The notes under the pieces are model-generated. The model was not told the origin of the DNA. It saw nothing but the letters and a program-made list of their open reading frames with translations, and ran no database searches. Below are positions 3,428-55,162 of a DNA stretch of 64,000 bases, piece by piece. The number at the start of each line of letters is the position of its first letter. Position 1 is the first letter of the stretch. The stretch lies in contig NZ_JOCT01000029.1 in assembly GCF_000717875.1 (NCBI RefSeq), positions 31,727 to 95,726 of the forward strand. Direction: 5' to 3'. Both the position numbers and the translations under genes were made by a program. The stretch comes from Streptomyces sp. NRRL S-455. GTDB taxonomy: Bacteria > Actinomycetota > Actinomycetes > Streptomycetales > Streptomycetaceae.

Positions 3428-6400
3428 TCACTCCTCTCGGTGGACTTGGCGGGACAGGGCGGCGAGGACGCGGCGGTATGCCCACTGGTCCAACTCGTCC
3501 TCGGTCAGACCCTCGGAGAGCTGCGGGATACCCGCTGCGACGAGGGCGAGCTGCTGGCCGGACGTCAGGTGCGTCTTCAGCTTCGGGACCGGGAAGCCGG
3601 GGATGTTCACGGCGAGCAGGCCGACCAGGCGCAGCGACCCGCCGATGCGGCGCCAGTCGCCGGACACCTGCCCGGCCGCGCGCAGCTCGTGGATGCGCGA
3701 CTCGGGCGTGCCGGGCCGGATGGAGCCCGCGACCCAGATGCCGTGAGCGTCGTTGCCGACGGCGACGTCCGCCACGGCGGCGCCGGTGTTGTCGTAGTGG
3801 TCGGCTGCCGCGCGGTAGCCGTAGGACAGGGGCGCATGTCCGGTGCCGACGGTGATCTGTCCGACGCCTACCGATGAGCCGTCCTCCGTCCAGACGTTGC
3901 CCGTCATGAAGTACGGGTGTGCCTCCTCGTGCGGTGGGGTGACGCACACACCCTCCTGCCCGATGTGGCAGGTGCCCCACAACGCGGCGTGCCCGTACAC
4001 CCGGCCCTCCGGCGTGACCGTGATCCCGGTGGGCACCGACAGGCCCGGGTTGGAGAACCAGCTGGCCGGCGGGCGCACCGGCGCCTCCACCGTCCGAGCC
4101 GGAGCCGTACGGACCTTCGTCTCACGCACCGCGCCGATCGGTTCGCCGCCGGCGACGACGGCCCCGGCCTCGTCCAGCAGGGCGATGTACGCCTCGGCGA
4201 AAGCGGGGATGTCCACCAGGGTCGCCGCGCGGATACGGCCCTTGTTGAACACGACTTTCTCCGGCGACGCGAACAGCATGTCGAACGGGGAGCCTTCACC
4301 GTCCGCGTCCGGGTCGGCAGGCCACACCAGTTCCATGTCGGCGTCTTTGATGGAGTCGACATCCACCGACACACCGCGCAGGAACTGACCCTTGATCTTG
4401 CCGTGGACCGTGCGGCCGTCCTCGGTGGACAGGTCCAGAACGCCCTCACCCATGATGAGGCCGCCGTCTTCCCGCCACACCCGGTCGATGCGGCCGACGT
4501 TCACCGCTACGGTGTGCGGCTCCCCGCCGTGGCTGTCTTCCTTGTTCCAGCGCAGCGGGAGCGGCAGGTCGGCCCAGGTGAGCGCCTCCGGCTTGAACTC
4601 CCGGCCGTCGCCGGTCTCGATACCCTCCACGGTCAGCGGGCCACGCCACGGCGCGGTGTCGCCGGAGCCCATCTCGCTGACCGGCGGCCCCGCCACCTCC
4701 TCGGCGTCGGCCGCCGCGCCGTGCGCCAGGGTCTCGGGGCCGTGCTCGCCCCGCAGCGTCTGCGCACCCCCGACCGCCTTCTCCCCGACCTCCACGCACT
4801 CGCCGGAAGCCTTGTCCAGCTCCATGCCGGGCGGGCACTGCTTCTCCTCGGAGGCGGACTGTTTGTTCTCCTTCAACCGCTTGTCCTTCGGCGTACCGGG
4901 GTTCGGCTCACCCTTACTCAGAACCTCGGTCGCTTCGGTCGCTGCTTCGGTCGTCATGGACTGATCTCCTTCCGCCGCGTCCTGTGCGGCCGGTTGGGTG
5001 TCGGCACTCGCCGTGGTTGCCGGGCTCCGCACTTCCTGCCAGACGGCGATGAGGAAACCCCGGCACGCGTTGCCGTAGCGGGCGCCGGTGCAGTCCCGGT
5101 AACCCATGACCGGGTACTCCGCCATGGCTGCGTCCAGGGTGGTGAACGTGCGGCCGTCGATCGCTTTGCAGGGGTCGCACGTACGGCGGTCCAGAATCTC
5201 GGAGGCGGTGTACGAGGATGCAGGCGGCGCGGCCTCCATCACCGCGTGACGTCCGGCGTTCTGCGCGGCCGTCATCGCCTGTCCGACGGCGGCCCGCACT
5301 GAGGTGTCGTCCACCGTGGCCAGCTCCCGGTCGACCTCAGCAGCCACCTGCTCCGACGGCCGGCTGGAGCGCAGCAACCCGGACAGCTTCCGCTTGGCGG
5401 CCGTCAGTAGCGCCCCCGACATGAGGTCGCTGGACAACTCCGCGACGGAAGACAGCAGCCGCCGTCCGGTGAGCGCGGCCGTGACCGCGTCCTCGTCGCC
5501 GTCGGGCAGCGACCAGTCCGGGACGGCGATGCCCTGCCGTTCGGCCTCACGCTGGCACGCCCGGCCCGCTTTGACCGCGTACTCCTCCATGAGATTCAGC
5601 AGAGTGGACGTCGCAGCCCGGCTGTCCAGGGTCAGCTCAGGCACCGACTCCAGGCGGTCGTCGGCGAGGTCCCGGGTGATCTGCTCGCGCACGTCCAGGC
5701 GCCACGCGGCCGTGACCGACTTGAGGGCCTTCAGCGCCCCGGCTGTCGCGGACTCCCACTCCGCGTGCACCCCGGCGAAGTCGACGCGCGAGGCCACCTC
5801 CAGCTCGGTCGGCTCCCGGCGCAGCGGTCCGGCGGCGGCCGTCACCGCGTCGCCGGTCAGGGGTATGTCGTGGTCCTCGTCGCCGAAGGACAGCCGAATG
5901 CGGTCGAACGTCACCGTGCCCAGCCGCTGTTCCAGTTCCTTCAGCAGGGCGGGGTCGTCGCTGTACGCGGCGCAGATGTGCGCAGCCCAGGGGCTGTGCT
6001 GCGGGGGCATCTCGGGACGCCCGTGCGTGGACTCCAGAGCTTCCGTGACGCAGGCCCGGACCCGCAGCAGGCCGTCCGGTGGAACGTGCTCGCCGGGTTC
6101 GGCGTCGCCCACGTTCCAGACCCAGCAGGGGTAGTCTCCACCTCCGTTCCAGTGCGCGGCGCCGAACGCCTTGGCCCGCACGGGCCCGAGCCCGTACAGC
6201 TCCGCCAGCGGGCGCAGGATCCCCTCCAGCTCGTCGCGCTGCCCCTCGGTCCACTCGGAGCTGTCGTCACCAAGGAAGAACAGCGTGCAGTGCAGCTCCT
6301 CGGCCGGCTCGCCGCCGGGTATTGCGAGGCGTTCGGCATCCTCGGCCGTCGGCATGAGGGCGACCATGCAGCCCTGCGTGTGCGAGCCGTCGGCGGCGGC

Positions 6401-8526: not shown

Positions 8527-8739
8527 TCAGAGCCTTCCGGCCTTGAGCAGCGTGCGGACGGCCTGCCGGAACTCGCCCTTCAGCTCATCGGCTGCCAGCG
8601 CGTCGCGCAGAAACTCGCCGGCCGTGGGGTGGGTCGCCGCCCGACGGGCCGCCCAGCGGAGGTCCGGGGTGACTCCGTGATCGCCCCGGGCGACCTCGGC
8701 GAGAATTTCCTGGGCGTCTGCGATGTGGCTGGAGTTCAT
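8527..8739 (-). CDS. Small hypothetical cassette protein (70 aa)
   Basis: The protein is short, helical and soluble, with no cysteine or membrane segment (MNSSHIADAQEILAEVARG at its start). AAGGAA lies upstream of the ATG. It is a single-gene unit with its own palindromic promoter (8787-8824) and terminator (8488-8511). I do not recognise it. Confidence 0.65.
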   Translation of the reverse strand: MNSSHIADAQEILAEVARGDHGVTPDLRWAARRAATHPTAGEFLRDALAADELKGEFRQAVRTLLKAGRL

Positions 8740-8786
8740 GGTCGGTTCCTTCTTTCCTTGGTCTGTCGGTCCGGCACTCCGTCCCG

Positions 8787-8824
8787 ATGAATTAATTAAA
8801 CCACACTCTGTGCGGCCGGGGCAA
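8787..8824 (-). promoter_or_regulatory. Palindrome-type promoter, leftward
   Basis: On the minus strand a GGGGTTG box (TTG at 8824-8822) is followed after 18 bases by TTTAAT within GGTTTAATTAATTCATC. It drives the 70-residue gene ending at 8527. Confidence 0.65.
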
Positions 8825-8837
8825 CCCCGAGCACGAC

Positions 8838-8870
8838 GAAGCCCCGGAGCCGTACGCGCTCCGGGGCTTC
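8838..8870. terminator. Hairpin terminator after the RiPP locus
   Basis: GAAGCCCCGGAGC pairs with GCTCCGGGGCTTC across a seven-base loop, directly downstream of the ATP-grasp gene. Confidence 0.75.
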
Positions 8871-8888
8871 GCGGGGTGTTGCAGTGCG

Positions 8889-9896
8889 CTACACGTCGGC
8901 GGACCCTCGCTGCCAGGGCGCCCCCGAGGACGCGCGGTGACCACCGCCGGGGGTGTAGACGTGGGTGGCCAGTGCCGTCTGGACGAGGTGGTCAGCGATG
9001 GCCCGTGAGATGACCATCCCGGTAGACGTTTCCACGAAGCCGAACTGGCCCGCCGGGTTCGCCTCCAGGAACCACCACGTGCCGCCCTGGTCGACGGCGA
9101 AGTCCAGGGCGGCGTACTCCAGCCCCAGCGTCTGCATGAGCTTCTGGACTTTCTGCGTCAGCGGCAGACTGGCACTCACAGCCTCGAAGCCCAGGTCGTT
9201 CTCCGGGGCCGCCCTCCAGTCGAACGCCCCGTCGGCGGTGACCTTGCACGGGAACATCCGGTCGCCGATCACCGTCAGCCGGATGTCGTGTGTCTTGTCC
9301 ACAGGCCGCTGGAGGTAACACATGGTCTGCCGCACGTGGTCGGCGCCGGCCAGGATCTCCTCGGGGGACACCAGCCGGGCCTGGACGAACCGGTCCGGGT
9401 GCGCGGTGAGGGTCTTGCACACCACCCTTCCGCCCTGTTCCGTGGCGAACGCGGCGGCCCGGTCGGGATCGTTGGTGAACAGTGCTGGAGGAGTCCGCAG
9501 GCCGAGAGACGAGGCGAGATGCAGTTGTCGTGGGCCGGGCCGGGCAGCCTGCGCCCGGAGCGGGTGGTTCACCCACAACGTCCCGTCAAGGCCGTACAGG
9601 AAGTCCTCCAGGATGGCTCGGGACTCCCGCTGTCCCCACCCACCGGGCAGGCCAGGGTGCCACCAGAAGACGGAGACAACCGACTGCGAGAGCGTGGAGC
9701 GGTGGTCGTCTTCGATGGTGAACCGTAACGGCTCCCCGTCCGAGACGCCGGTCATCCGCAACGCCCCCGGGCGCGCGAGGTCGGCGGGGTCGATGCGGTG
9801 GATGGCGACCCCACGCGCCTGAATCTGCCGTATCACGAGGTCAGCCCCGAGATCGTCAGGTGCGGTGACGACAAGCACGGTGGGTGGGAGCGGCAT
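8889..9896 (-). CDS. ATP-grasp ribosomal-peptide ligase (graspetide-type maturase)
   Basis: The 335-residue protein starts at ATG 9896, whose ATGA overlaps the stop of the precursor gene, so the two are translationally coupled. It has an N-terminal sensor-like domain (VLVVTAPDDLGADLVI), then ATP-grasp features: GGRVVCKTL, DIRLTVIGD, YAALDFAVDQGG and WFLEANPAGQFGF with the metal-binding E-x-N. This layout matches ATP-grasp peptide maturases that form side-chain ester or amide crosslinks in graspetides, the family typified by Streptomyces SAV_5884. The likely substrate is the adjacent 90-residue peptide. A promoter and a terminator flank the pair as one mobile cassette. Confidence 0.8.
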   Translation of the reverse strand: MPLPPTVLVVTAPDDLGADLVIRQIQARGVAIHRIDPADLARPGALRMTGVSDGEPLRFTIEDDHRSTLSQSVVSVFWWHPGLPGGWGQRESRAILEDFLYGLDGTLWVNHPLRAQAARPGPRQLHLASSLGLRTPPALFTNDPDRAAAFATEQGGRVVCKTLTAHPDRFVQARLVSPEEILAGADHVRQTMCYLQRPVDKTHDIRLTVIGDRMFPCKVTADGAFDWRAAPENDLGFEAVSASLPLTQKVQKLMQTLGLEYAALDFAVDQGGTWWFLEANPAGQFGFVETSTGMVISRAIADHLVQTALATHVYTPGGGHRASSGAPWQRGSADV

Positions 9897-33516: not shown

Positions 33517-36500
33517 TCAGTCCTTCGCGTAGCACGCATCCCACGACACGGCCGCCTTGCTCGCGCCGGCCGTGATCGGCACGCCCTTGAAAGCGAACGT
33601 GAACGCGTCCAGCACGGTGGCCGTGATCTCCTCCACGCGGTTCTCGGGGACGCACAGGACGACCTCGTCGTGCACGACGCAGCGCAACCATTCCGTCGCC
33701 TCCGGGGCCCGGTCGACGAGCCGCAGCAGCGCCTCGCACATGATGTCCCGGGCGCCGCCCTGGCCCATGAGGGCCGGGGCCTGCGTCCAGGCCCGGTCCG
33801 GGTTGCAGCGCATGAGCCGGCCGAAGCCGTTGTCCAGCAGCTCGCCAGCCTTGCCCCGCTCGCGGACCTCGGTCCTCCAGGCGCACAGCCCCGGGAACTG
33901 GCTGTTCATCTGGTCGTCGAACTGCTGCGCCACCGCCCGCTCGACGCCCTGGCGGAGGACAAGGCTGTCCACGCCCATCCCGTAGTTCCAGCCGTGGCCG
34001 GACGCCTTGGACTTGTCCCGCCACTCACAGGTGTGCTTCGGCCCGGTGCACCCGCAGTTGTCCCGGCCGAACACGGCGTCGGTGACCATGCTGTGCGCGT
34101 CCATGCCCGGACCGAACAGGGCCATGTACGCCTCGTCCTGGCTGTGTCCGGCCACGGCGCGCATGTCGACCTGGTCCAGGTCGAACGCAATCAGCAGCAT
34201 GCCGTCGTCGGCGATCATCGGGCGCCGTTGGTGGACCTTGCCGCCACGCTTGCCCATGTTGGTCACCGACGGGTTGATGTACGCCCACCGGCCGGACGCC
34301 TGGAGGTCACCGACCTTCGGGTGCACCCGGTCTCCGATGAGGTGCTTCTGGATCTCCGCGTACTTCTGCACCGAGGACGTCACGGTGACGATGTGGCCTG
34401 CCATTTCCTCGATCGCGGCCCAGTCCGCGTCGGGGTGGAACGGGCGACGGTTCGGGTTGAGCAGGGCGGGCAGCTCGCGGGTCTCTTTGCCCTTGCCCAC
34501 CAGGTAGGCGCCCTCGCCCAGCGCGTCCTTGCTGGTGGCGAGTGTCCCGGAAGCCGTCTTGAGGTAGTACGGCAGACCCCGATCGGCGAACGCCCGAACG
34601 AGAGCGCCCCGACCCTCCTTGGTGGACAGGGGGGCCAGCACCGGCTCGTCCGTGAAGACACGGTTCTTGCCCCGACCCCTGCCGACCGACTTGGTCAACG
34701 GCACACCGCAGTTCTCGTGCAGCCACTCCAGCGACTCCTGCCGCTTGTCGGCCTCAGCCTTCACCAACCGGGTCAGCTCGGGGACGTCCACGCGCCAGCC
34801 GTTGTAGGTCATACGGTGCTGGAGGTGGGCTACACGCATCTCGCGCCGGACGTAATCCGAAGGCTCACCCAGAGCGCGCCGCACGCCCCGGGTGGCCTTC
34901 AGGTCGCCGCTGAAGTACGCGCGGTACTCGGGATCGTCCTCGGGGATCCTGCCGTATCCGATCTCGGCCCGCTCGTCGTCGGTCAGCTTGCGCCCGTCGA
35001 TCTCTTCCGGGGCGTGCTTGATGGCGAGGGCCCGGAGGTTGTCCGTCTTGCCGGGCATGCCGAGCCGGGCCGCCAGGCCGTCCAGGCTGTAGTAGCCCTT
35101 GGCGGACCAAGGCTTCTCACCCTTGGCGCCGGGCGGGTCCACGGTCATCGCCCACCGCATGGTGTCCACCGTCTTGGCGGCCAGCTTGTCGTAGTCGGCG
35201 CCGTGGTGGCGGGCGAGGGCCATGAGGTCGAACCCGAGCAGGTTGTGGCCGTAGATCTCGTCGGCGTCCTCCAGCCGCTTGATCAGCTCCTGCACGGAGT
35301 TGACGACGACCTCCGTGCCGTCCTCGGTGACGTAGCCGGACAGCTTGGTGTACGGGTCGCCGCCGAGGTCGGTGTGGGTGAACAGCCGCTTGGCCGAATG
35401 AGACTCGATGTCGAACCCGATCACGCCGCCGGCGCGCGACGGGACGCTTTCGGCCTCGGGAGCCGGGGACGGGGCGGGGACGGTGACCGCGCGGGCCGCG
35501 TGATCGGCTTCCGCTTCGCCGAATGGATCTTCTCCGAACGGGTCCGCATCGGGGGCCGTCTGAGGAGGTGTACCGCCTGTACCCCCTACTCCGGTAACTC
35601 CTATACGTGAAGAGATTTCACGGTTATGAGGTGAAGAGGGTACAGGGGGTACACCTTCGTCTCCACCGGCGTTGACCGGGTCTTTTCCGTTCGGGTCCTG
35701 GAAGCGCACTCCGAGCCACGCCTGGTAGTTGACGCCCTTGGGCTCGTGACCGCCCAGCGTCGACCGTCCGTCACGAGCCCGGATCTTCTTCCGCTGCACG
35801 CCGTTCCGCGCGCACTCGTCGTGGCCTCCGAATCGGGAGACGAACGTGCGGTCCGTCCACTCCCGGTGGCCCTTGTCCTCCAGGTACTTGTTGAAGACCT
35901 CGTGCAGCTCCCGGGCGAGGATGTGGCTGTTCCAGTCGAACGTCAGGACGTCCCCGATGAACGACAGGATCAGGTCCGACTCCCGGCGCCAGCTCAGCGT
36001 GTCGTCCTCCACCCGCTTCGGAGCGGGCGGCATGATCTGCCCCGCCGCGTACCACTTGCGGGCCCCCTCGACGAGCCACGCCAGGGCGGCCTCCGTACGC
36101 GGCCCGTCGTCCGTCCGCAGCCGCTGACGGAGCATCTGGTCACCGGGCTTGTCGTAGGGCCCTGTGCACGCCTCCCCGGGCTTCCTGAACGTGAACGGGA
36201 AGCACAGCATCTGGAGCCGGCGCCACGTGCCGTGGTCGGACTCCTCCACGAGCGGCCGGTGGTTGGTGTTGATGATCAGGGTGTGGGTCGTCCGGAAGGT
36301 CACGCTGTCCTGACGCATCTTGCGCGCCTTGATTTGCTCGGTGCCTGCGAGCTGCTTGACCCGGTTGACGTCCAGCTTCTTCGCCTCGGGCGTCTCCTCC
36401 AGCACCGCGAGCCGGGCCCCGAGGAAGTCCATCATCTCGGTGGGGTGGTTCTCACTCGCGTTGCCGAGCAGGGCCCGGTGAGCGACGGCCGTGTGGTACC

Positions 36501-37896
36501 CGCCGCGCGTGCCGGCCGCCTTGGCAAGCGTGTCCATGATCGAAGACTTGCCGTTGGACCCTCCTCCCTGGCAGATGAGGATGACGTCGTCCGGCGGGGT
36601 GTGGCCGGTGATGCCCTGGCCGTTGCGGATCTGGAGGTAGTCCACCGAATCATCGGGGACGGCCTCCAGCGCGGTGTCCCAGTCGGGGTGCGTGGCGCCG
36701 GGGACGTAGTCACACCCGGTGATCTTCGTCATGAGCCGGTCAGGGTCGTGCGGGGTGAGCACACCCGTCTTCAGGTCCAGGATGCCGTTCTGGCAGTTGA
36801 GCGCGTCCGGGTCGTAGTCGAAGTCCGTCGCGTCGGACAGGATGCCGTTGACACCTTTGGCCAGCTTGAGCAAGTTGCCCAGCTTGGATGCGGCCAGCGC
36901 TCCGCGCCAGCCGTCCATCTCGGTGCGGTAGTCCTTGCCCGGCTCGGCGCGCTGCTTGTCGAGTGCCCGCTGGAAGCCCGCGAGGGCCCACTGCCGGATC
37001 TCCTCCAGCACCTGGGCGTCGGTGCACTCGGTCCACACCTTGCCGTCCCAGCGCATCCACCCGAGCCCGGAGGCCCACCGGTAGCGACCCTCAAGGGCCT
37101 CCATGCACACAGCGTCCGCCAGCACGGCGTCGGAGAACGCGGCGTCCCGTGTGTTGTCGCTCGGCTTCTCGGTGGTGGCCGCGTCGCGCAGCCCCTCCAG
37201 CGTGCCCCCCGCGTGGAAGTAGTCGTCCACGCCCTTGACCTGCGTCCCGTTGACCTCCTCGGGGACGATCAGGTACCGGATGTCGGCAGCGCCCTTGGAC
37301 TCCAACCAGGTGCCAAGGCGACGCATAGCTTGCAGCACTTGGCGGTTGTGCCGGGCGTCCGAGTCAAAGCAGATGACGACTGTTCGGCCCTTGAGCTGGA
37401 TGTCCTCCCAGTCTCCGAGCGTGCCGCCCCGCCTCTTCCAGTTCCAGACTCCGGAGAGCGCCACCGCCGCGATCCCGTGGGATGCCAGGGAGTCGGCCTT
37501 CTTCACGCCCTCCGTGATCCACAAAGGAGTCGTGACGAGGCGTACAGAGTTTGCGACGAGCGGCGGGACGTCGAGACGCGACGCCTTGCCCTGAGCTGTC
37601 GCGTACTTCACGGGCTTGTCGCCCATCGCTTGCGGAACACCGGGCTTGAACTGCGCACCGATGCGCTCGCCGGTCACCCGGTAGATGGGGATGAACAGTC
37701 CGGGAAAGGCACTTTCCTCGCGCCAGGCCCACACCGGGATGGACTCCTCGCGCAGCCGTGCGCGGTCCTCGTCGGTGCCGTAGAGGGTCTCGTAGCCGCG
37801 AGCGTCCCGGTGTTCCGGCGCGATCTCGCTCGCGTCCAGTTCCGCCCGGTGGTGATCGGACAACTGCCCCGCGTTCGCTTCCACGTAGGTGGTCAT
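33517..37896 (-). CDS. Primase-helicase-DNA polymerase A fusion
   Basis: ATG at 37896 follows CAAGGAATCGAGGAACCG. The 1459-residue protein joins three replication modules. Residues 110-240 are TOPRIM-like (WITEGVKKA with Glu129; ICFDSDAR with Asp178/180). Residues 260-640 form a P4/D5 superfamily 3 helicase (Walker A ICQGGGSNGKSSI at about 441-453). A Pro/Gly linker lies at about 735-820. The rest is family A polymerase with 3'-5' exonuclease (FDIES, HNLLGFD, YFSGD), then motif A AFDLDQVDMRA, motif B WNYGMG and motif C VVHDEVV. One polypeptide could prime, unwind and copy phage DNA. Confidence 0.9.
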   Translation of the reverse strand: MTTYVEANAGQLSDHHRAELDASEIAPEHRDARGYETLYGTDEDRARLREESIPVWAWREESAFPGLFIPIYRVTGERIGAQFKPGVPQAMGDKPVKYATAQGKASRLDVPPLVANSVRLVTTPLWITEGVKKADSLASHGIAAVALSGVWNWKRRGGTLGDWEDIQLKGRTVVICFDSDARHNRQVLQAMRRLGTWLESKGAADIRYLIVPEEVNGTQVKGVDDYFHAGGTLEGLRDAATTEKPSDNTRDAAFSDAVLADAVCMEALEGRYRWASGLGWMRWDGKVWTECTDAQVLEEIRQWALAGFQRALDKQRAEPGKDYRTEMDGWRGALAASKLGNLLKLAKGVNGILSDATDFDYDPDALNCQNGILDLKTGVLTPHDPDRLMTKITGCDYVPGATHPDWDTALEAVPDDSVDYLQIRNGQGITGHTPPDDVILICQGGGSNGKSSIMDTLAKAAGTRGGYHTAVAHRALLGNASENHPTEMMDFLGARLAVLEETPEAKKLDVNRVKQLAGTEQIKARKMRQDSVTFRTTHTLIINTNHRPLVEESDHGTWRRLQMLCFPFTFRKPGEACTGPYDKPGDQMLRQRLRTDDGPRTEAALAWLVEGARKWYAAGQIMPPAPKRVEDDTLSWRRESDLILSFIGDVLTFDWNSHILARELHEVFNKYLEDKGHREWTDRTFVSRFGGHDECARNGVQRKKIRARDGRSTLGGHEPKGVNYQAWLGVRFQDPNGKDPVNAGGDEGVPPVPSSPHNREISSRIGVTGVGGTGGTPPQTAPDADPFGEDPFGEAEADHAARAVTVPAPSPAPEAESVPSRAGGVIGFDIESHSAKRLFTHTDLGGDPYTKLSGYVTEDGTEVVVNSVQELIKRLEDADEIYGHNLLGFDLMALARHHGADYDKLAAKTVDTMRWAMTVDPPGAKGEKPWSAKGYYSLDGLAARLGMPGKTDNLRALAIKHAPEEIDGRKLTDDERAEIGYGRIPEDDPEYRAYFSGDLKATRGVRRALGEPSDYVRREMRVAHLQHRMTYNGWRVDVPELTRLVKAEADKRQESLEWLHENCGVPLTKSVGRGRGKNRVFTDEPVLAPLSTKEGRGALVRAFADRGLPYYLKTASGTLATSKDALGEGAYLVGKGKETRELPALLNPNRRPFHPDADWAAIEEMAGHIVTVTSSVQKYAEIQKHLIGDRVHPKVGDLQASGRWAYINPSVTNMGKRGGKVHQRRPMIADDGMLLIAFDLDQVDMRAVAGHSQDEAYMALFGPGMDAHSMVTDAVFGRDNCGCTGPKHTCEWRDKSKASGHGWNYGMGVDSLVLRQGVERAVAQQFDDQMNSQFPGLCAWRTEVRERGKAGELLDNGFGRLMRCNPDRAWTQAPALMGQGGARDIMCEALLRLVDRAPEATEWLRCVVHDEVVLCVPENRVEEITATVLDAFTFAFKGVPITAGASKAAVSWDACYAKD

Positions 37897-37949
37897 CGGT
37901 TCCTCGATTCCTTGGTCAGTGCTTCCTTGGTCTGCGGGGGTGTGGGCAC

Positions 37950-38435
37950 TTACTCTCTCCTCCCCTTCCGGCCGGCCGGGCGCCGACGATCGAACCGGGC
38001 CGCAGAAGCGGCGTCCCACGCCGTCCGGAACTCGGGGCCGGTCCACATGCGGTGGACGTCGGCGACCATGCCGCTCGGGTGCCAGACGCGGACGGTGTGA
38101 TCCCGCCCGCAGACGTCACCCCTGCGGTGCAGGCCGCGCACCGTGAACAGCATCAGGCCGGTGACGGTGACGAGGCCCTTCCAGCGTGGGTCGTCAAAGG
38201 TATCCGCGAGCGGCTTTATCTCCATCCACGCCTGGTCAGCGCCACGATGGGGCCGGATACGGAAGTCCGGCAGGTACCCCCGGCCGTCGCCGACGCGGTA
38301 CGCCTGCGGCTCGTACTCCCACGGGATGCCCGCGCGTTCGAAGAACACGATCCAGCGGGCTTCCAGCCGCGAGCGTGTGGTGACCCCGTGCACGGTGGTG
38401 GGGATCGGCTTGACGGCCTGGTACAGGCTGGTCAT
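37950..38435 (-). CDS. PD-(D/E)XK nuclease-like protein
   Basis: ATG at 38435 overlaps the upstream stop as ATGA. The 161-residue protein has RSRLEARWIVFFERAGIPWEYEP, then LPDFRI and WMEIKPL, giving an E...D...ExK nuclease pattern. It resembles small phage restriction-like or junction nucleases that accompany replication proteins. The C-terminus is strongly basic (RFDRRRPAGRKGRRE). It sits between the excisionase-like gene and the polymerase fusion. Confidence 0.65.
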   Translation of the reverse strand: MTSLYQAVKPIPTTVHGVTTRSRLEARWIVFFERAGIPWEYEPQAYRVGDGRGYLPDFRIRPHRGADQAWMEIKPLADTFDDPRWKGLVTVTGLMLFTVRGLHRRGDVCGRDHTVRVWHPSGMVADVHRMWTGPEFRTAWDAASAARFDRRRPAGRKGRRE

Positions 38436-49400: not shown

Positions 49401-49729
49401 GCCGGCGAGTGATGAGGTTCGGGTACGTCTACGGAGGAACGGCCCGCTTCAAGGGGCAGAAATACATGCTGGACGGGACGGCCTACTCACTGGGCCGGTG
49501 TGACGAGGTGCGGCTTCGCGCGGCAGCCGTACGGGACTTGTCCCAGTCACAGAACGTTCCGCTTGCCGGTATCGAGATCACGGACTTCTGGTTCAGCGAG
49601 ATCGTCACCGAGAACGACATCCGGGACACGTCGGCGGGTACGGCGAGTGCCGACCCTTTCCGTCCCCACGCCGACCCCGGTCCGGACCCGTTCCGCCCCT
49701 GCGATGTCCCTGACGGCTGGGACACGTAA
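49397..49729 (+). CDS. Hypothetical protein (110 aa)
   Basis: GTG at 49397 overlaps the previous stop. The protein has RFGYVYGGTARFKGQKYML and IEITDFWFSEIVTEND, then a disordered tail with DPFRP repeats. The 3' part of the gene contains the first copies of the GGGACA/TGTCCC repeat. Function unknown. Confidence 0.55.
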   Translation: MSRRVMRFGYVYGGTARFKGQKYMLDGTAYSLGRCDEVRLRAAAVRDLSQSQNVPLAGIEITDFWFSEIVTENDIRDTSAGTASADPFRPHADPGPDPFRPCDVPDGWDT

Positions 49730-49814
49730 ATGCGGGACACGGACAACGAGGGGCCCCGGGACATCGGGGCCCCTTTCGCGTACTTCACGGTTGCACGCCC
49801 GGGGCGACGGGTAC

Positions 49815-49832
49815 GATGATTTAGGGAAATCA
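49815..49832 (+). promoter_or_regulatory. Palindrome-type promoter element, rightward
   Basis: ACGATGATTTAGGGAAATCAT lies upstream of the winged-helix gene at 49857, with a TTGCAC further upstream. Confidence 0.5.
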
Positions 49833-49856
49833 TCCTGACCAAGGAACGAGGAAGTC

Positions 49857-50315
49857 ATGACCAAGCAGACCGAAGCGGCGGCCGTGGACGTTCTCACCGC
49901 CGTCACCCGGGACGACCCGGCGGCGGCACGGGCGCACATCCGGGAACTGTCCTTCCAGGGACGCGCCCTGCTCATGGCCTGGGCCGTGGAGCTGAGCCGG
50001 CTCATCCAGGACGAGCAGTACGCCTACGACGCCAAGGAGCGCCGGATCGCCCGGGAAACCCGCGAGACCGAGGCAGACGCCTCCACATGCCAGAAGATTC
50101 TGCGCGCCCGCGTCCGACGCCTCGCGCAGAGGACGGATGCGGAAGCGCTGACAGTGCGTGCTCTCGAATTTCTCGACCTCGGACGCAGCCGGCCGTGGAT
50201 CGCCGGGGAGCTGGAGAAGCTCACCGACGAGGGTGTGCTGAAGCCGGACCCCAGTGACCCGGGGCGGTACTTCATCCTGCGGGCGCCGGACGGGGACACG
50301 ACGGCCGACGTCTGA
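49857..50315 (+). CDS. Helical regulator with C-terminal winged helix (152 aa)
   Basis: GACCAAGGAACGAGGAA precedes the ATG. The N-terminal 100 residues are helical and charged (RIARETRETEADASTCQKIL). The C-terminal half has EFLDLGRSRPWIAGELEKLTDEGVL, matching the winged-helix pattern R-S/P-R-x-W...L..L...GVL of the translocase C-terminus. It lies directly before the repeat-rich region and could bind it. Function is inferred. Confidence 0.6.
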   Translation: MTKQTEAAAVDVLTAVTRDDPAAARAHIRELSFQGRALLMAWAVELSRLIQDEQYAYDAKERRIARETRETEADASTCQKILRARVRRLAQRTDAEALTVRALEFLDLGRSRPWIAGELEKLTDEGVLKPDPSDPGRYFILRAPDGDTTADV

Positions 50316-50531
50316 CGGGACATCGCGGTAGCGGGACAACGAGCCCTCACGGGACAAGACCGTGGGGGCTTCGTCGTGTCCCGGGACATCCGGCGCCGGG
50401 ACACAGGAGGTGTCCCGCACGGGACAGGGACAGCGGGACACAGCAGCCGGGACAAACACTCTGTCCCTGGTGGGACATGTCCCGGGACAAAGGTTTGCCG
50501 GGACACGGGACATGGGGACAAGTAGCGTGTA

Positions 50532-50550
50532 CGATGATTTAAGAAAATCA
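50532..50550 (+). promoter_or_regulatory. Palindrome-type promoter of the transfer module
   Basis: ACGATGATTTAAGAAAATCA sits at the end of the densest GGGACA cluster, followed by CCAAGGAATCGTGACCAAGGAAGAG before the membrane-protein gene. Confidence 0.55.
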
Positions 50551-50592
50551 GCACCGACCAAGGAATCGTGACCAAGGAAGAGAGGGCAGACG

Positions 50593-51810
50593 ATGTCCCG
50601 CATGTCCCGCACTCAGGCAGCCACCTACGGTCTGCTTGTCCCGGCCGCACTGGCCCTGGCCATGTCCGCCGACACCTCGTACCGCTTCATGGAGACCGCG
50701 CTTCAGATCTCCGACGAGACCGAGCGCATGATTCTGTGCGGCGTCGCCGAGGCCGCCATCGTCGCCCTCACGGTCTACGCCTGGGCCACCCGGACCAAGG
50801 GCCCCGCCTATCTCGCCTATGCGGCCGTGCTGGTGCAAGGCATCCCCGCCTTCACGGTCTCCGGGAGCGTCGGCGGCCCAGTGCGGGTCGTCCTCGGCCC
50901 GGTGCTGCTGGCCGTTCTCCTGCACCTGCTGCTCGGCCTGGAACTGCGCATGTCAGGGGCTAAGTCGGACAGCCTGCTCGCCTCCGCCCTGCGGGAGCTG
51001 AAGGAGCGTCTGACGGCCTTCCTGGGCATCGGCCGACGGGGCGCCGACTCCGCCGCCATCGCCCGCAGCCGCGCCGCCGACAAGGCCGTGGACCTGGCGG
51101 ACCGTCTGGCTGCCGCCCAGCCCGGCAAGCGCAAGCACACTCGCCTGGTAGGCCGTCTCGCGAAGCAGATCGACGCGGCCCGCCACGGGCTGAACGAGAC
51201 GGAGGCCGCGCAGGCGGAGGCCGCCATCGTCGCCCGCGTCGTCCGGCGTAAGTCGGTCAAGGCTCTCGCCAACATCAGTACGCGGCACGACTGGTCGCTG
51301 TCCCTTGTCCCGGCGCCGGCTGTCCCGGTCGGGGACACGGGACAGAGCGATGTCCCGACGTTCGTGTCCCCCGAGGCGGCTGTCCCCCGGGACACGGCCG
51401 ATGTCCCGGCCCCTGTTGTCCCGCAGCGGGACATGTCCCGTGTCCCGCAGGACGTTGTCCCGGCGCCCGAGCCGGTTGTCCCGGCGGCCGTGTCCCGCCC
51501 TCGGGCCGCTGTCCCGGCGACGATGTCCCGGCCGCGTCCCACCGTCCGTATCTCTCTGGACAAGACGCCCGAGGAGATCAGCGCCGAGCGGGACATGTCC
51601 CGGAGCGCGGGACAGGCGAGCGTCGATGTCCCCGAGGACGTCCGGGACAACCTGACTGGCATCGTCCGCTTTCTGATGGAGACGGGACACGACAAGGCCG
51701 AGGTCCGCGCGATTGTCCCGACTCTGCCGGGACACGGGGACACGAAGCCGGGCGGCCCGAAGTCGGAGAGCCTGCGCAAGGCGATCCAGCGGACGTTCCC
51801 CAAGGAGTAA
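50593..51810 (+). CDS. Membrane protein of plasmid-transfer type (Spd/DUF2637-like)
   Basis: The 405-residue protein has three or four transmembrane segments in its first 120 residues (GLLVPAALALAMSA, MILCGVAEAAIVALTVYAW, VVLGPVLLAVLLHLLLG). A charged coiled region follows. Then comes a Val/Pro/Arg low-complexity stretch in which VP, MSR and VPA units arise from repeated TGTCCC in the DNA. A small folded C-terminus (DNLTGIVRFLMETGHDKAEV) ends it. Similar membrane proteins lie next to TraB in Streptomyces plasmids, where they help spread between hyphal compartments. The repeat-driven composition is unusual. Confidence 0.65.
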   Translation: MSRMSRTQAATYGLLVPAALALAMSADTSYRFMETALQISDETERMILCGVAEAAIVALTVYAWATRTKGPAYLAYAAVLVQGIPAFTVSGSVGGPVRVVLGPVLLAVLLHLLLGLELRMSGAKSDSLLASALRELKERLTAFLGIGRRGADSAAIARSRAADKAVDLADRLAAAQPGKRKHTRLVGRLAKQIDAARHGLNETEAAQAEAAIVARVVRRKSVKALANISTRHDWSLSLVPAPAVPVGDTGQSDVPTFVSPEAAVPRDTADVPAPVVPQRDMSRVPQDVVPAPEPVVPAAVSRPRAAVPATMSRPRPTVRISLDKTPEEISAERDMSRSAGQASVDVPEDVRDNLTGIVRFLMETGHDKAEVRAIVPTLPGHGDTKPGGPKSESLRKAIQRTFPKE

Positions 51811-51865
51811 CCGACGTAGAAGGCACTTGCGGCCCGGGACAGACGGGCGCACCCTTGATTTAGGT

Positions 51866-51899
51866 AAAGCCCTACCGGGGACAACCCTGGTAGGGCTTT
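51866..51899. terminator. Hairpin terminator
   Basis: AAAGCCCTACC pairs with GGTAGGGCTTT across twelve bases, after the membrane-protein gene. A degenerate GATTTAGGTAAAG element overlaps its left side. Confidence 0.7.
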
Positions 51900-51936: not shown

Positions 51937-52515
51937 ATGAATCACATCGGGCAAAACCACCCTGACAACCCGTTCAGCCCGGCTGGCCGGGCCAACGGGC
52001 AGACGAACGGACAGCTCCGCGCTCGGGGCCTGGACGGCCAGGGCAACCCCCTCCCGTCGAACGGCAGCAGCGCCAAAACCGCAGGTCAGAAGGGATTCTC
52101 CCGACCGGGCGGCACACGGGGTCAGGGCATCGCACAACTCGCCCAGTCCATCGGCTCGATGGAGCTGTCCAACCAGGACGATCTGCACGCGTTCTGCGAG
52201 GCGTACCGGGCGATCCTCAACTACCTGGCCGTGTCCGCGAAGATGGCCGAAGGCCAGCTCAAGGCGGCTGCCAGGGCCAACGCACGGCAGGCGAAAGACG
52301 GGTGGATGACGCCCGCTCAGGCAGCCAAGCTGGCGCTGACGTTGCGTTCGGTTGGCAAGGATCTCGACCGCATGGCCAACTCCTGCGTAGACGGGTCCGC
52401 AAGCGCGGTCAAGGCGTGGCGCCGGTTCGAAGGCCTGCTGGACGAGCTGGAGAACGACCGCAAGGGTGTCCGTCGTCCCGGGGGCCGTCGTGGCGGCTCC
52501 TTCACCGTGGTGTAG
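51937..52515 (+). CDS. Hypothetical transfer-module protein (192 aa)
   Basis: CAGGAATCAGGAAGAGGAACCAGGA precedes the ATG. The protein begins MNHIGQNHPDNPFSPAGR in a Gly/Asn/Gln-rich disordered region of about 75 residues. Helices follow with QDDLHAFCEAYRAILNYL and WMTPAQAAKLALTLRSVG, and a basic Arg/Gly tail ends it. It lies directly upstream of the FtsK-like gene and is probably co-transcribed. It may be a small accessory transfer protein, but the family is not recognised. Confidence 0.55.
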   Translation: MNHIGQNHPDNPFSPAGRANGQTNGQLRARGLDGQGNPLPSNGSSAKTAGQKGFSRPGGTRGQGIAQLAQSIGSMELSNQDDLHAFCEAYRAILNYLAVSAKMAEGQLKAAARANARQAKDGWMTPAQAAKLALTLRSVGKDLDRMANSCVDGSASAVKAWRRFEGLLDELENDRKGVRRPGGRRGGSFTVV

Positions 52516-52520
52516 GGGCG

Positions 52521-54518
52521 GTGGGCGACGTGTCGAACAGTCACCGCGTACGCGGATACGCCCTGTTCAGGGTGTCTGAACGCATCACTTCGTACGTCCT
52601 GCCCTGGGCCATCACCATGGCCGCGTGGCCTCTGGCTCTGGTGCTCCACCTCGTCATCGGGGACAGCCCGTTGTGGATGTCCTTTCTCGCCCTCGGGTTC
52701 GCGTATCTCGCATACGTGACCTGGTCGACCTGGGCGGTGCGCCGCCAGGAGACCCGGGTCATGGTCACGGTGTTCGTCAGCGCCGTCCTGACCTGGGAAC
52801 TCTTCGCCATCACCGTCCGTCCCTGGCAGGCCGACGTGGCCAAGGCGTGGGCGCTCGGCGGACTCGTTCTGTCGGTTGCCTGGTGCGTCCGGCACGCGGC
52901 TCTGTCGGGTGTGCGGGACTCCGACAAGTCGCCGGAGACCAGCGGAAACGACGGTTTGCTGGCCAAGGTCCGGGCGTTCAAGGACGCCAGGGTCGGCAAG
53001 GTTACGGAGTCCGAGCAGGAGCTGCGCGCCCGGGTCCACCTGGACGCCCCGACCACGGCGAAGGAGGCGCAGGACGCCCGGGAGCAGATTGCGGCCGTCG
53101 CCGGGGTCGGCGCCGACCAGGTGAAGGTGCTCAAAGTCGCAGGTCACGAGGGTCAGGTGGACGTGGCGTTCACCCGTGGGCAGGACGCCCTCAAGCCGGC
53201 CGTCTGGACCGGCCCACGCCACCTCGGGGCGTCCATCGCGGACTACCCGATCTGGCTCGGCAAGCGCACCGACGGCAGCGACATCAACTGGTGGATCGTC
53301 GGTTCCGACGACGAGGAAAACCCCAGGCCACTGGCCCACACGAAGTGCACCGGGGTGTCCGGCGCGGGCAAGACGGAGACCCTTTGCACCGCCATCCTCC
53401 AGATGCGCGAGCGCGTGGACGTCGTCCCCGTGGTCGGCGACCCGGCGAAGTACTCGCAGTCCTTCGGCGACATCTCAGAGGCGATCGGCCTGGCCGCGAC
53501 GACCCGTGAGACCACGGAGCAGCTCGTGCGGAACCTCATCCCGCTCATCGAGTACCGCGCGGGACTGTTCGGCACGCTGACCCGGGCTGATGGCGGCAAG
53601 GGCTACAAGCAGTGGGTGCCGGAGCTGTGGACGCTGCACCGCATCCCGGCGATCTTCCTGGACATCGAGGAGGCCACCGACGTGCTGATGGTGGTGGACG
53701 AGGAAGCCGACGAGGCGCTGCGCAAGCTGCGGTCGGTCGGCGTGCACTTCTGCGCGTCTACGCAGACCATGCCGCACGACAACATCAACCGGAAAACCCG
53801 TGGTCAGTTCACCCAGTCCCTGGCCCACGGGCAGAAGGAGAACCAGGACGCCAAGTACGCCCTGGAGGCGGAGACGCTGGAGGCCGGGGCCGACCCGACC
53901 AAGTGGGCCAACAACGCCCCTGGTTCGCTGTATGCCGAGGTCACGGGCACGGACAAGGTCCATTGGCCGGTCGACGGCCGGGTGCCGCGCATGAGGGCGG
54001 CCGACCGTGCGGAGATGATCGAGCGCACTCGACCGTACTGGGCTGAGCTGGACGCGGGCAGTTACCGCATCCTCGCCGAGGGCGTCGTGGACGAGCAGGC
54101 CGAGGCCGTGGAGACGGCCGGCGACGAGCCCCTGGAGGGCACCGTGGACGACGATTTCGCGCAGGTCAGCGACCTGGACCTGACCTCGGACGGCATCGAC
54201 ACGAGCGAGCCTCTGTCCGCCCCGCGCGGCGCCGGCGTCACCTTCGCCGACCCGCTGAACACCAGCCGGATGTCGACGGAGGACGCCCGCGCGGAGCTGC
54301 TGAACCGCATGCACATCCTGGTCAGCAGCGGTCAGACGGACGTCACGTTCGAGGACCTGGCCGACCTCCCGGACCTCGTCGGCCGGCCCCGTGGCTGGGT
54401 GTACGACGAGCTGGAGCAACTGGCCGACGACGGCGTGCTGCGCCGCGTCAACCCGCCCAACAAGCGGGCCGTCTACGAGGTCGCCGGGAACGTGTTCGCC
54501 GAGGCGGCGGCCATGTGA
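52521..54518 (+). CDS. FtsK/SpoIIIE/TraB-type DNA translocase
   Basis: GTG at 52521 (or 52530) gives about 665 residues. Residues 20-120 hold three to four membrane segments (ITMAAWPLALVLHLVIG, MSFLALGFAYLAYVTW, AWALGGLVLSVAWCV). The motor has Walker A CTGVSGAGKTETL and a Walker B-like VLMVVDEEAD, followed by GVHFCASTQTMPHDNI. The C-terminus has a winged helix (LVGRPRGWVYDELEQLADDGVL), like the DNA-reading gamma domain of FtsK and TraB. In Streptomyces plasmids TraB moves double-stranded DNA between hyphae by binding short clt repeats. The GGGACA array upstream is a candidate target. Confidence 0.85.
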   Translation: MGDVSNSHRVRGYALFRVSERITSYVLPWAITMAAWPLALVLHLVIGDSPLWMSFLALGFAYLAYVTWSTWAVRRQETRVMVTVFVSAVLTWELFAITVRPWQADVAKAWALGGLVLSVAWCVRHAALSGVRDSDKSPETSGNDGLLAKVRAFKDARVGKVTESEQELRARVHLDAPTTAKEAQDAREQIAAVAGVGADQVKVLKVAGHEGQVDVAFTRGQDALKPAVWTGPRHLGASIADYPIWLGKRTDGSDINWWIVGSDDEENPRPLAHTKCTGVSGAGKTETLCTAILQMRERVDVVPVVGDPAKYSQSFGDISEAIGLAATTRETTEQLVRNLIPLIEYRAGLFGTLTRADGGKGYKQWVPELWTLHRIPAIFLDIEEATDVLMVVDEEADEALRKLRSVGVHFCASTQTMPHDNINRKTRGQFTQSLAHGQKENQDAKYALEAETLEAGADPTKWANNAPGSLYAEVTGTDKVHWPVDGRVPRMRAADRAEMIERTRPYWAELDAGSYRILAEGVVDEQAEAVETAGDEPLEGTVDDDFAQVSDLDLTSDGIDTSEPLSAPRGAGVTFADPLNTSRMSTEDARAELLNRMHILVSSGQTDVTFEDLADLPDLVGRPRGWVYDELEQLADDGVLRRVNPPNKRAVYEVAGNVFAEAAAM

Positions 54519-54540
54519 CGGACCGGCGATTGGCGCACAC

Positions 54541-54578
54541 TCAGGGCGGGCATCTCATGTCAGAGATGCCCGCCCTGA
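54541..54578. terminator. Strong hairpin terminator after the translocase
   Basis: TCAGGGCGGGCATCTC pairs with GAGATGCCCGCCCTGA across six bases. Confidence 0.85.
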
Positions 54579-54679
54579 CACGTCTCTGACGGCCCGTGGT
54601 GGCACCTCTGACGCGTCAGCAGACGCCGCCGGACTGTCCGTGACTCCAGCCATTACACGGGTCTGACAGGGGCGCTGAC
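54558..54679. repeat. Short CTGAC/GTCAG cluster
   Basis: About seven copies of CTGAC or GTCAG occur in roughly 120 bp of noncoding DNA past the translocase, including CTGACGCGTCAG. This could be a second small binding-site cluster. Confidence 0.4.
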
Positions 54680-54766
54680 GGCCTCGGCGGCGCTGCGACC
54701 TAGAACTCTCTCCCGCTCGGCCCGGCCGGCGCGGACAACGACCGATGACGCAAGGACTGATGACAG

Positions 54767-55162
54767 ATGACCAAGGAACTGAACTGCACCGGATGCGGCG
54801 GCCAGGCGGTCCACACGAAGACGGTCCCGCTGTGCTCGCGGTGCGCTCTGGCCGTTGCCGAGGAGTCGTTGGGCTTCGTGTTCGACGGGCTGCGCAGCGA
54901 CGCCGGAGTGATCCAGCTCCCGGCCGCGCCGGAAGACCGGATGAGCCCGGCGGAGGCCGACGACGTGGCGTACCAGCGGCTGTCCGCGCTGCGCCGACAG
55001 GGTGCGAAGCGGGTCACGTTCGAGGACTTCAAGGATCTGCAAGAGATCACCGGCCGGTCCCGGCCGTGGGTGTACCGGTGGCTGGACGCCCGGGTGAAGG
55101 ACGGCGACCTGGTCAAGGACACGGCGGGCGAGCGCGTGGGTTACGTCTACGCCCCGGACTGA
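54767..55162 (+). CDS. Zinc-ribbon plus winged-helix regulator (131 aa)
   Basis: The product begins MTKELNCTGCGGQAV with a second LCSRCALA pair, forming a zinc ribbon. It ends in a winged helix (VTFEDFKDLQEITGRSRPWVYRWLDA) closely similar to the translocase C-terminus (VTFEDLADLPDLVGRPRGWVYDEL). It could read the same DNA sites as the translocase. The sequence GATGACAGATGACCAAGGAA supplies start and SD-like bases. Confidence 0.65.
   Translation: MTKELNCTGCGGQAVHTKTVPLCSRCALAVAEESLGFVFDGLRSDAGVIQLPAAPEDRMSPAEADDVAYQRLSALRRQGAKRVTFEDFKDLQEITGRSRPWVYRWLDARVKDGDLVKDTAGERVGYVYAPD

Follow-up and report, generated by a model that had tools for sequence, protein, structure and literature searches.

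This study concerns a 64,000-nucleotide stretch of the Streptomyces sp. NRRL S-455 genome (hereafter the window), which forms the end of a 95.7-kb contig in an 8.2-Mb draft genome and carries phage genes together with a traA-traB transfer module. Just ahead of this module, at 49539–51883, the hexamer GGGACA and its complement TGTCCC form an array that is dense and non-random, a real feature of the DNA, and the array belongs to the gene of a membrane protein (50593–51810). Our favoured explanation, to which we give a probability of roughly 0.55, is that the array serves a phage-plasmid tra-spd region as a recognition locus in cis, read most likely by the membrane protein through its C-terminal domain. 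The comparison of related genes suggests that a Spd-type membrane protein may bind tags in its own gene, by which the machinery would recognise its own DNA. Spd proteins are described as residing in the membrane and being required for DNA transfer within the mycelium; SpdB2 of pSVH1 is reported to bind DNA non-specifically and to interact with TraB (PMC12857230, PMC4170104).

The GGGACA array and its place in related elements

An exact count gave 97 copies of GGGACA/TGTCCC in the whole window (mean 53.2 and maximum 72 in 100 dinucleotide shuffles), 58 of which lie within 49539–51883. An initial annotation of this DNA had described about 58 strongly over-represented repeats, and this number holds; 500 dinucleotide shuffles of 49539–51888 gave a mean of 2.0 copies and a maximum of 7. 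The remaining 31.7 kb of the contig contains 12 copies. When the host genome was scanned for GGGACA pairs at most 20 bp apart, 63 were found, 33 of them in the array and 30 in the remaining 8.2 Mb, and the latter show no surplus over the 31 obtained with a reversed-pattern control.

By exact position, the array starts with six left outlier copies at 49539–49763, which fall within the last part of the 49397 gene and the gap after it. A dense and mostly noncoding part is found at 50293–50520, where 19 copies occur in 228 bp and 15 of them face right, the same figures as first described. The first of these copies overlaps the end of the upstream gene, and 18 copies lie in the noncoding sequence proper (277 bp), for which 1000 shuffles gave a mean of 0.7 and a maximum of 4. 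Three copies on the minus strand lie in the first codons of the membrane-protein gene (50594–50642), 28 copies occupy the linker-coding region and reach into the C-terminal domain (51299–51742), and two right-hand outliers on the plus strand stand ahead of traA (51836–51883). Helical phasing of the array sites was looked for and none was found. When the noncoding part of five relatives was aligned with that of the window, the site columns were 87% identical and the other columns 75%.

The gene at 50593–51810 (plus strand) encodes a protein of 405 amino acids consisting of a hydrophobic N-terminal domain, a low-complexity linker and a C-terminal domain, with the sites mostly in the linker and traA-traB nearby. 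It is Spd-like by position and architecture only; the protein has no match in Pfam up to an expectation value (E) of 1 and hence no DUF2637 domain, which is present in the corresponding gene of a relative, L015 (E 7e-11). The gene contains 31 copies spread over four frame/strand combinations, 10 facing right and 21 facing left. Synonymous-codon shuffling, which keeps both the protein and the codon usage, gave a mean of 5.7 copies (standard deviation 1.9, maximum 13), and 31 was reached in none of 2000 shuffles, so the earlier proposal that the DNA rather than the protein is conserved is borne out. The initial annotation had also counted 33 copies in the coding part, 21 of them leftward, and proposed that the orientation switches at the gene start. 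The 21 leftward copies were recovered, among 31 rather than 33, and their excess arises because the protein itself imposes such a ratio (2.0 right and 3.8 left in the synonymous null). What remains of the proposed switch is the rightward bias of the noncoding part, observed in six of seven loci with the window counted, the exception being L038 with 4 right- and 7 left-facing copies. The array as a whole has 31 right-facing and 27 left-facing copies.

Viral-contig scans with TraB and with the membrane domain yielded 14 distinct contigs, the window included; 13 were found by TraB, and the upstream sequence is kept in 12 of them. These counts omit L036, whose upstream sequence is cut off and whose TraB end is the same as that of L031, and the duplicate contigs L018, L027–L029, L032, L094 and L096–L099. 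In all 12 loci an array is located just ahead of traA-traB. GGGACA is the top word in L013 (the window itself), L014, L015, L016, L031 and L038, while GGGACA plus AGGACA (RGGACA) is found in L017, L033, L034 and L035. L037, with a TraB 46% identical to that of the window, uses GAGGACA. Among complete plasmid records the closest one found was pS1D4-14.2, a linear 98.8-kb plasmid from Streptomyces sp. S1D4-14; it uses CGAAAG with CGAGAG despite a TraB that is 72% identical. L095, found through the membrane domain only, again has GGGACA. In L033, L034, L035 and L037 the array lies in a hydrophobic-protein gene ahead of traA and exceeds the synonymous null; L017 has 36 RGGACA in the upstream 1.9 kb, where our frame filter did not list a membrane-protein gene. 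The expectation that the same repeat stands beside related translocases is thus correct for the array and partly so for its sequence, as two loci have another word and others have drifted. These comparisons show that the position of the array is conserved and that its word turns over between relatives.

Arrays in SpdB2-type genes and the candidate reader

SpdB2-type genes of other Streptomyces plasmids carry their own, different 7-mers. A k-mer scan of 14 TraB plasmid stretches, plus the ends of 27 traB genes, detected CGCGAACA in pWTY27, for which an SpdB2-like protein is listed by the authors, and CGTGAACA in NBC_01005, each inside a DUF2637 gene. We then compared 94 genes and open frames from 15 loci with synonymous shuffles while leaving the word freely chosen; the set was a selection to which the window contributed 15, and some open frames of the window may not be true genes. 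Behind the window gene, which ranked first, came NBC_01005 and pWTY27 with their DUF2637/SpdB2 genes and pCQ3 with a gene for a membrane protein. For SpdB2, stretches were taken for 11 of 24 records, with three more already represented by L041, L051 and L052, and 13 named plasmid genes have 9–20 sites each, mostly between the membrane and C-terminal domains with some extending into either. Among 15 further whole-genome loci, 14 share the C-terminal helix described below, 11 of these 14 clear the margin of the unbiased test, and in all 14 CGTGAAC is the commonest panel word in excess. DUF2637 genes at large behave differently: 30 loci were taken, L053 was dropped with no match to place the frame, and of the 29 examined in whole genomes 28 have no array and one is marginally positive. 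A viral-contig scan with the NBC_01005 protein found no relative.

Several other genes are of note. A Thermobispora gene and an S. globisporus DUF2637 gene (one frame only) exceeded the null only with words picked from the earlier scan, were not clearly above it in the unbiased test, and are not counted as support. The linear plasmids L045, L046, L049 and L050 gave weak signals in the same test. The pCQ3 gene (3575–4048) has a different membrane domain and 14 copies of CGCATC, on both strands and in several frames. In the Thermobispora bispora plasmid (L043, 7844–9092), CGGTACC occurs 87 times in 2.5 kb (both strands, partly overlapping), spanning the last part of a membrane-protein gene that lies downstream of traB and continuing into noncoding DNA, and this could be a further case.

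The identity of the reader is suggested by a panel of 26 SpdB2-type genes with the C-terminal helix G-[WR]-S-x-[AG]-W-[VI]-[STA], for which the words were picked after a first comparison; pSN22, whose spd region is split in two frames, was omitted from it and its frames were tested separately. In the sequences compared, two helix residues match two bases without exception. The word starts with CGC where helix position 3 is alanine (2 genes) and with CGT where it is glycine (24), while GAGC accompanies alanine at position 6 (3 genes) and GAAC accompanies serine or threonine there (23). The words of pWTY27, NBC_01005 and pJV1 are CGCGAAC, CGTGAAC and CGTGAGC, respectively. The residue-word match is 26/26 (Fisher P 0.003 and 0.0004, uncorrected for relatedness or panel choice). 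Two genes without the SpdB2-type helix have no array. The helix is called helix-turn-helix (HTH) from sequence, with a single sub-threshold Pfam match among these proteins.

Natural exchanges of domains point in the same direction. Between pWTY27 and NBC_01005 the membrane domain is 78% identical, the last 55 residues are 45% identical, and the word is different. L015 has a different membrane domain (DUF2637) and the same C-terminal domain as the window, and its word is still GGGACA. Conversely, pS1D4-14.2 has a membrane domain 76% identical to that of the window, a different C-terminal domain and a different word. We infer that the C-terminal domain of the window protein, the proposed array reader delimited by alignment to 51595–51807 on the plus strand, binds the array words.

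Several observations weigh against this assignment. The C-terminal domain of the window yields only a small helical AlphaFold2 model (mean predicted local distance difference test score 75), structure searches with it gave no significant match, and profile comparison did not link it to the SpdB2 HTH. The word is predicted just as well by membrane-domain neighbours, the changes of word and helix are few, and the genes are related. The old C-terminal domain of pS1D4-14.2 survives in a second open frame that also bears the new words, and the residue before the TraB helix tryptophan changes along with the word. The second frame of pS1D4-14.2 (L030), 8695–9291, places the old C-terminal domain behind an endonuclease VII-like domain (Pfam E 2.6e-8) and has its own CGAGAG/CGAAAG sites; the annotated gene is shorter.

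If the C-terminal domain is the reader, the membrane protein would grip dozens of short non-palindromic sites in its own coding sequence and in the noncoding DNA just upstream, about half of them within the reader's own gene. Such binding would tether the element to the membrane beside the TraB/Spd apparatus, and the Spd machinery, acting with or after TraB, could distinguish its own DNA from chromosomal DNA while anchoring it or spreading it through the hyphae, which would be the role of the array. TraB would use a separate clt immediately downstream of traB, and a reader and sites held in one gene would stay together through module exchange. A broader proposal, to which we give an even chance, is that Streptomyces conjugative elements from 9-kb plasmids to phage-plasmids have a second cis-acting transfer locus besides clt, consisting of 9 to about 58 sites in and around a Spd-type gene that are read by the C-terminal domain of its product, and that exchange or mutation of the domain, followed by rewriting of the array inside that same gene, gives each element a private address for its anchoring or intramycelial spread. 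If the array is the site of the Spd machinery, it would provide a concrete cis locus for plasmid recognition by Spd together with a readable relation of two residues to two bases, as well as a clean case of a coding sequence under two codes, peptide and many sites for the encoded protein. The comparison also brings to light a family of phage genomes with a traA-traB-spd region.

Known systems resemble this arrangement in part. SpdA2 of pIJ101 is likewise a DNA-binding protein of the spd region with sites within its own coding sequence, and its site sps is a conserved 12-bp palindrome, CGTCACGTGACG, present one to three times in the spdA gene (PMC4170104). The window word, in contrast, is non-palindromic (the comparison is by word, and the window was not scanned for sps), and the words described here are 6–7-mers in many copies (9–20 per named plasmid gene, 58 in the window array) that are element-specific and belong to a membrane protein. 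SpdB2/DUF2637 proteins share the order of membrane domain, linker and C-terminal domain, and are encoded ahead of traA-traB in several plasmids; unlike them, the window protein has no DUF2637 match in its membrane domain and no SpdB2-HTH profile similarity in its C-terminal domain. In the open-access literature on TraB/clt, phage-plasmids, DUF2637 and SpdB, of which parts were available, we found no mention of site arrays in spdB-type genes; key SpdB2/TraB papers lie outside this body of literature and an earlier mention is possible.

TraB, its candidate clt and other explanations for the array

The array was first favoured as the clt of TraB, as the initial annotation had suggested, and this was abandoned after the k-mer scan showed a second set of repeats downstream of traB. 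The description of a TraB/FtsK-type motor beside the array stands. The traB gene (52530–54518, plus strand) encodes an FtsK/SpoIIIE-like DNA translocase with a Walker A motif, hydrophobic segments and, by modelling, a C-terminal winged helix, and matches the NCBIfam profile NF041214 plasmid_TraB with E 4e-87 over nearly the whole profile, under the curated equivalog cut-off. Its start is likely the GTG at 52530, in a frame open from 52302. A structure search with the winged-helix model returned, among the 50 matches listed, winged-helix proteins with E 0.001–0.03 and no FtsK, which is uninformative either way. The neighbouring traA-like gene (51937–52515, plus strand) matches NF041213 plasmid_TraA with E 8e-5, below the cut-off of that profile.

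That the array is an unusually large clt, whose GGGACA words are bound by the TraB winged helix to load the motor for conjugative transfer of the phage-plasmid, seems to us unlikely. In its favour, an array immediately precedes traA-traB in all 12 loci with upstream sequence, and that of the window offers many copies (58) of a short repeat close to traB, as do the clt loci of pSVH1, pJV1, pIJ101 and pWTY27, which are short-repeat clusters by traB on elements moving as double-stranded DNA, with a repeat that varies from plasmid to plasmid. Helix alpha-3 of pSVH1 TraB is reported to recognise 8-bp repeats (cited in PMC3583192), and the residue before the TraB helix tryptophan is G with GGGACA/RGGACA, V in pS1D4-14.2 (CGAAAG) and P in L037 (GAGGACA). 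However, the clt of pWTY27, shown experimentally, and that described for pJV1 (PMC3583192) consist of four to nine repeats at the traB 3' end, whereas the 58 copies of the window sit in 2.3 kb, 0.6–3.0 kb upstream of traB, and coexist with TGAC repeats at the clt position.

Plasmid stretches were taken for 15 of 47 TraB records including pS1D4-14.2. The k-mer scan recovered the known repeats TGACACC of pWTY27 and CCGCACA of pJV1 at the traB 3' end, and 17 of 27 loci have there a repeat scoring at least 7 (a k-mer score with no formal null), for example GGTGTCA in NBC_01005 and CTGACA in L037. The score of the window is only 4.5. With the word TGAC[AG], picked after the k-mer result was seen, the 240 bp following the last sense codon of the window traB hold 9 copies against 0.9 at the locus rate and a mean of 1.5 (maximum 5) in 300 shuffles. 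The same word exceeds all 300 shuffles in 10 of 14 loci, the window included, and does not in L015, L017, L033 and L035; in L017 and L035 a candidate clt just 3' of traB is CTGATCA/TGATCAG, with 8 copies each. The repeats at 54519–54766, in the same place as the pWTY27 clt, are our candidate for the clt of the window, with putative TraB sites. Moreover, the clt repeat is common to pWTY27 and NBC_01005, and their TraB proteins are 83% identical, yet their spd genes have different arrays. The array is probably not the clt of TraB, and the TraB site probably lies downstream of traB; therefore GGGACA would be a second, separate set.

Proteins with TraB-like winged helices near the array had also been suggested as readers, and they are poor candidates. 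The small proteins encoded at 49857–50315 (NF041214, E 7e-6) and 54767–55162 (E 4e-8), both on the plus strand, are similar to the winged helix at the C-terminus of the adjacent TraB, as though the DNA-binding end of the motor had been duplicated out twice. Both were dropped because arrays occur without a detectable homologue: none of the first was detected in the array-bearing L015 and L016, and none of the second in the group with about 50% TraB identity, where arrays are present. Of the interpretation as a whole, the dense array, TraB and the phage genes are borne out, and the identity with clt and the winged-helix readers are not supported.

A comparison with FtsK/SpoIIIE and their oriented sites, the FtsK-orienting polar sequences (KOPS) and SpoIIIE recognition sequences (SRS), is natural since TraB is related to these motors and has a winged helix at its C-terminus. 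Unlike KOPS, the sites in the gene part of the array have no polarity beyond the coding bias, and the two orientations are nearly balanced overall (31 to 27).

A role in partition or maintenance is distinctly less probable; the array would then act as a centromere anchored in the membrane, with the membrane protein or a ParB-like protein as its reader. Dozens of short sites with a membrane-bound candidate reader would suit it, pS1D4-14.2 has annotated ParA and ParB-type genes, and SpdA2/sps, whose sites are likewise inside an spd gene, influences segregational stability (PMC4170104). In pS1D4-14.2, however, the array is at 10–12 kb and the par genes are far off (ParB-type at 34 kb, ParA at 85 kb), and comparable arrays adjoin tra genes on small plasmids. 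We hold it very improbable that the array is an operator or roadblock through which the membrane protein, a GntR regulator or a winged-helix regulator autoregulates the spd-tra genes. The sites do occupy an early gene of the module and the DNA upstream of it, and a GntR gene precedes the module in many plasmid stretches, but none is present in five stretches with or without arrays, each merely 3.4 kb. A conserved GATTTA-x-AAATC element at 50536 stands to the right of the dense noncoding part, outside it, and 9 to 31 sites across a coding region are, in our judgement, unlike ordinary operator design. Finally, it is scarcely credible that the repeats lack a DNA function and result from codon bias and a repetitive linker in the protein: the linker does have low complexity, and synonymous shuffling alone yields 5.7 copies, but 31 were never reached in 2000 shuffles, the copies occupy several frames and both strands, and 18 of them are noncoding.

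Phage and transfer genes of the element

The initial view of a phage genome carrying a transfer-type motor is supported by the gene content, as virion genes and the traA-traB module are both present on the window element. PHROGs assigns portal, terminase, tail and exonuclease proteins, Pfam identifies a D5/PolA primase and a helicase, and an IMG/VR viral contig matches the contig of the window at 100%. An iteron origin, with repeats bound by a Rep protein next to its gene, was another early suggestion for the array; the D5/PolA primase gene (33520–38046) is 12 kb from it. The annotation of pS1D4-14.2 similarly includes portal, capsid, tape measure, terminase, integrase, P4-type primase and ParA/ParB-type genes. 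Transfer of a Streptomyces plasmid-phage has been reported before, pZL12 being the cited example (PMC3583192, PMC4487206), and the present element is likened to it by description. Of the two small winged-helix genes, the one at 49857–50315 was not found in some array-bearing relatives.

A 14-bp palindrome-like element near GATTTAATTAAATC occurs at 17 places between 11154 and 63065, some of them immediately 5' of genes, examples being 12485, 15042, 33241, 49818, 50536, 51857, 58022 and 63052. Counting both strands with at most two mismatches, there are 32 matches against 0.3 expected in the window, and the element is perhaps a phage repressor operator or a promoter element.

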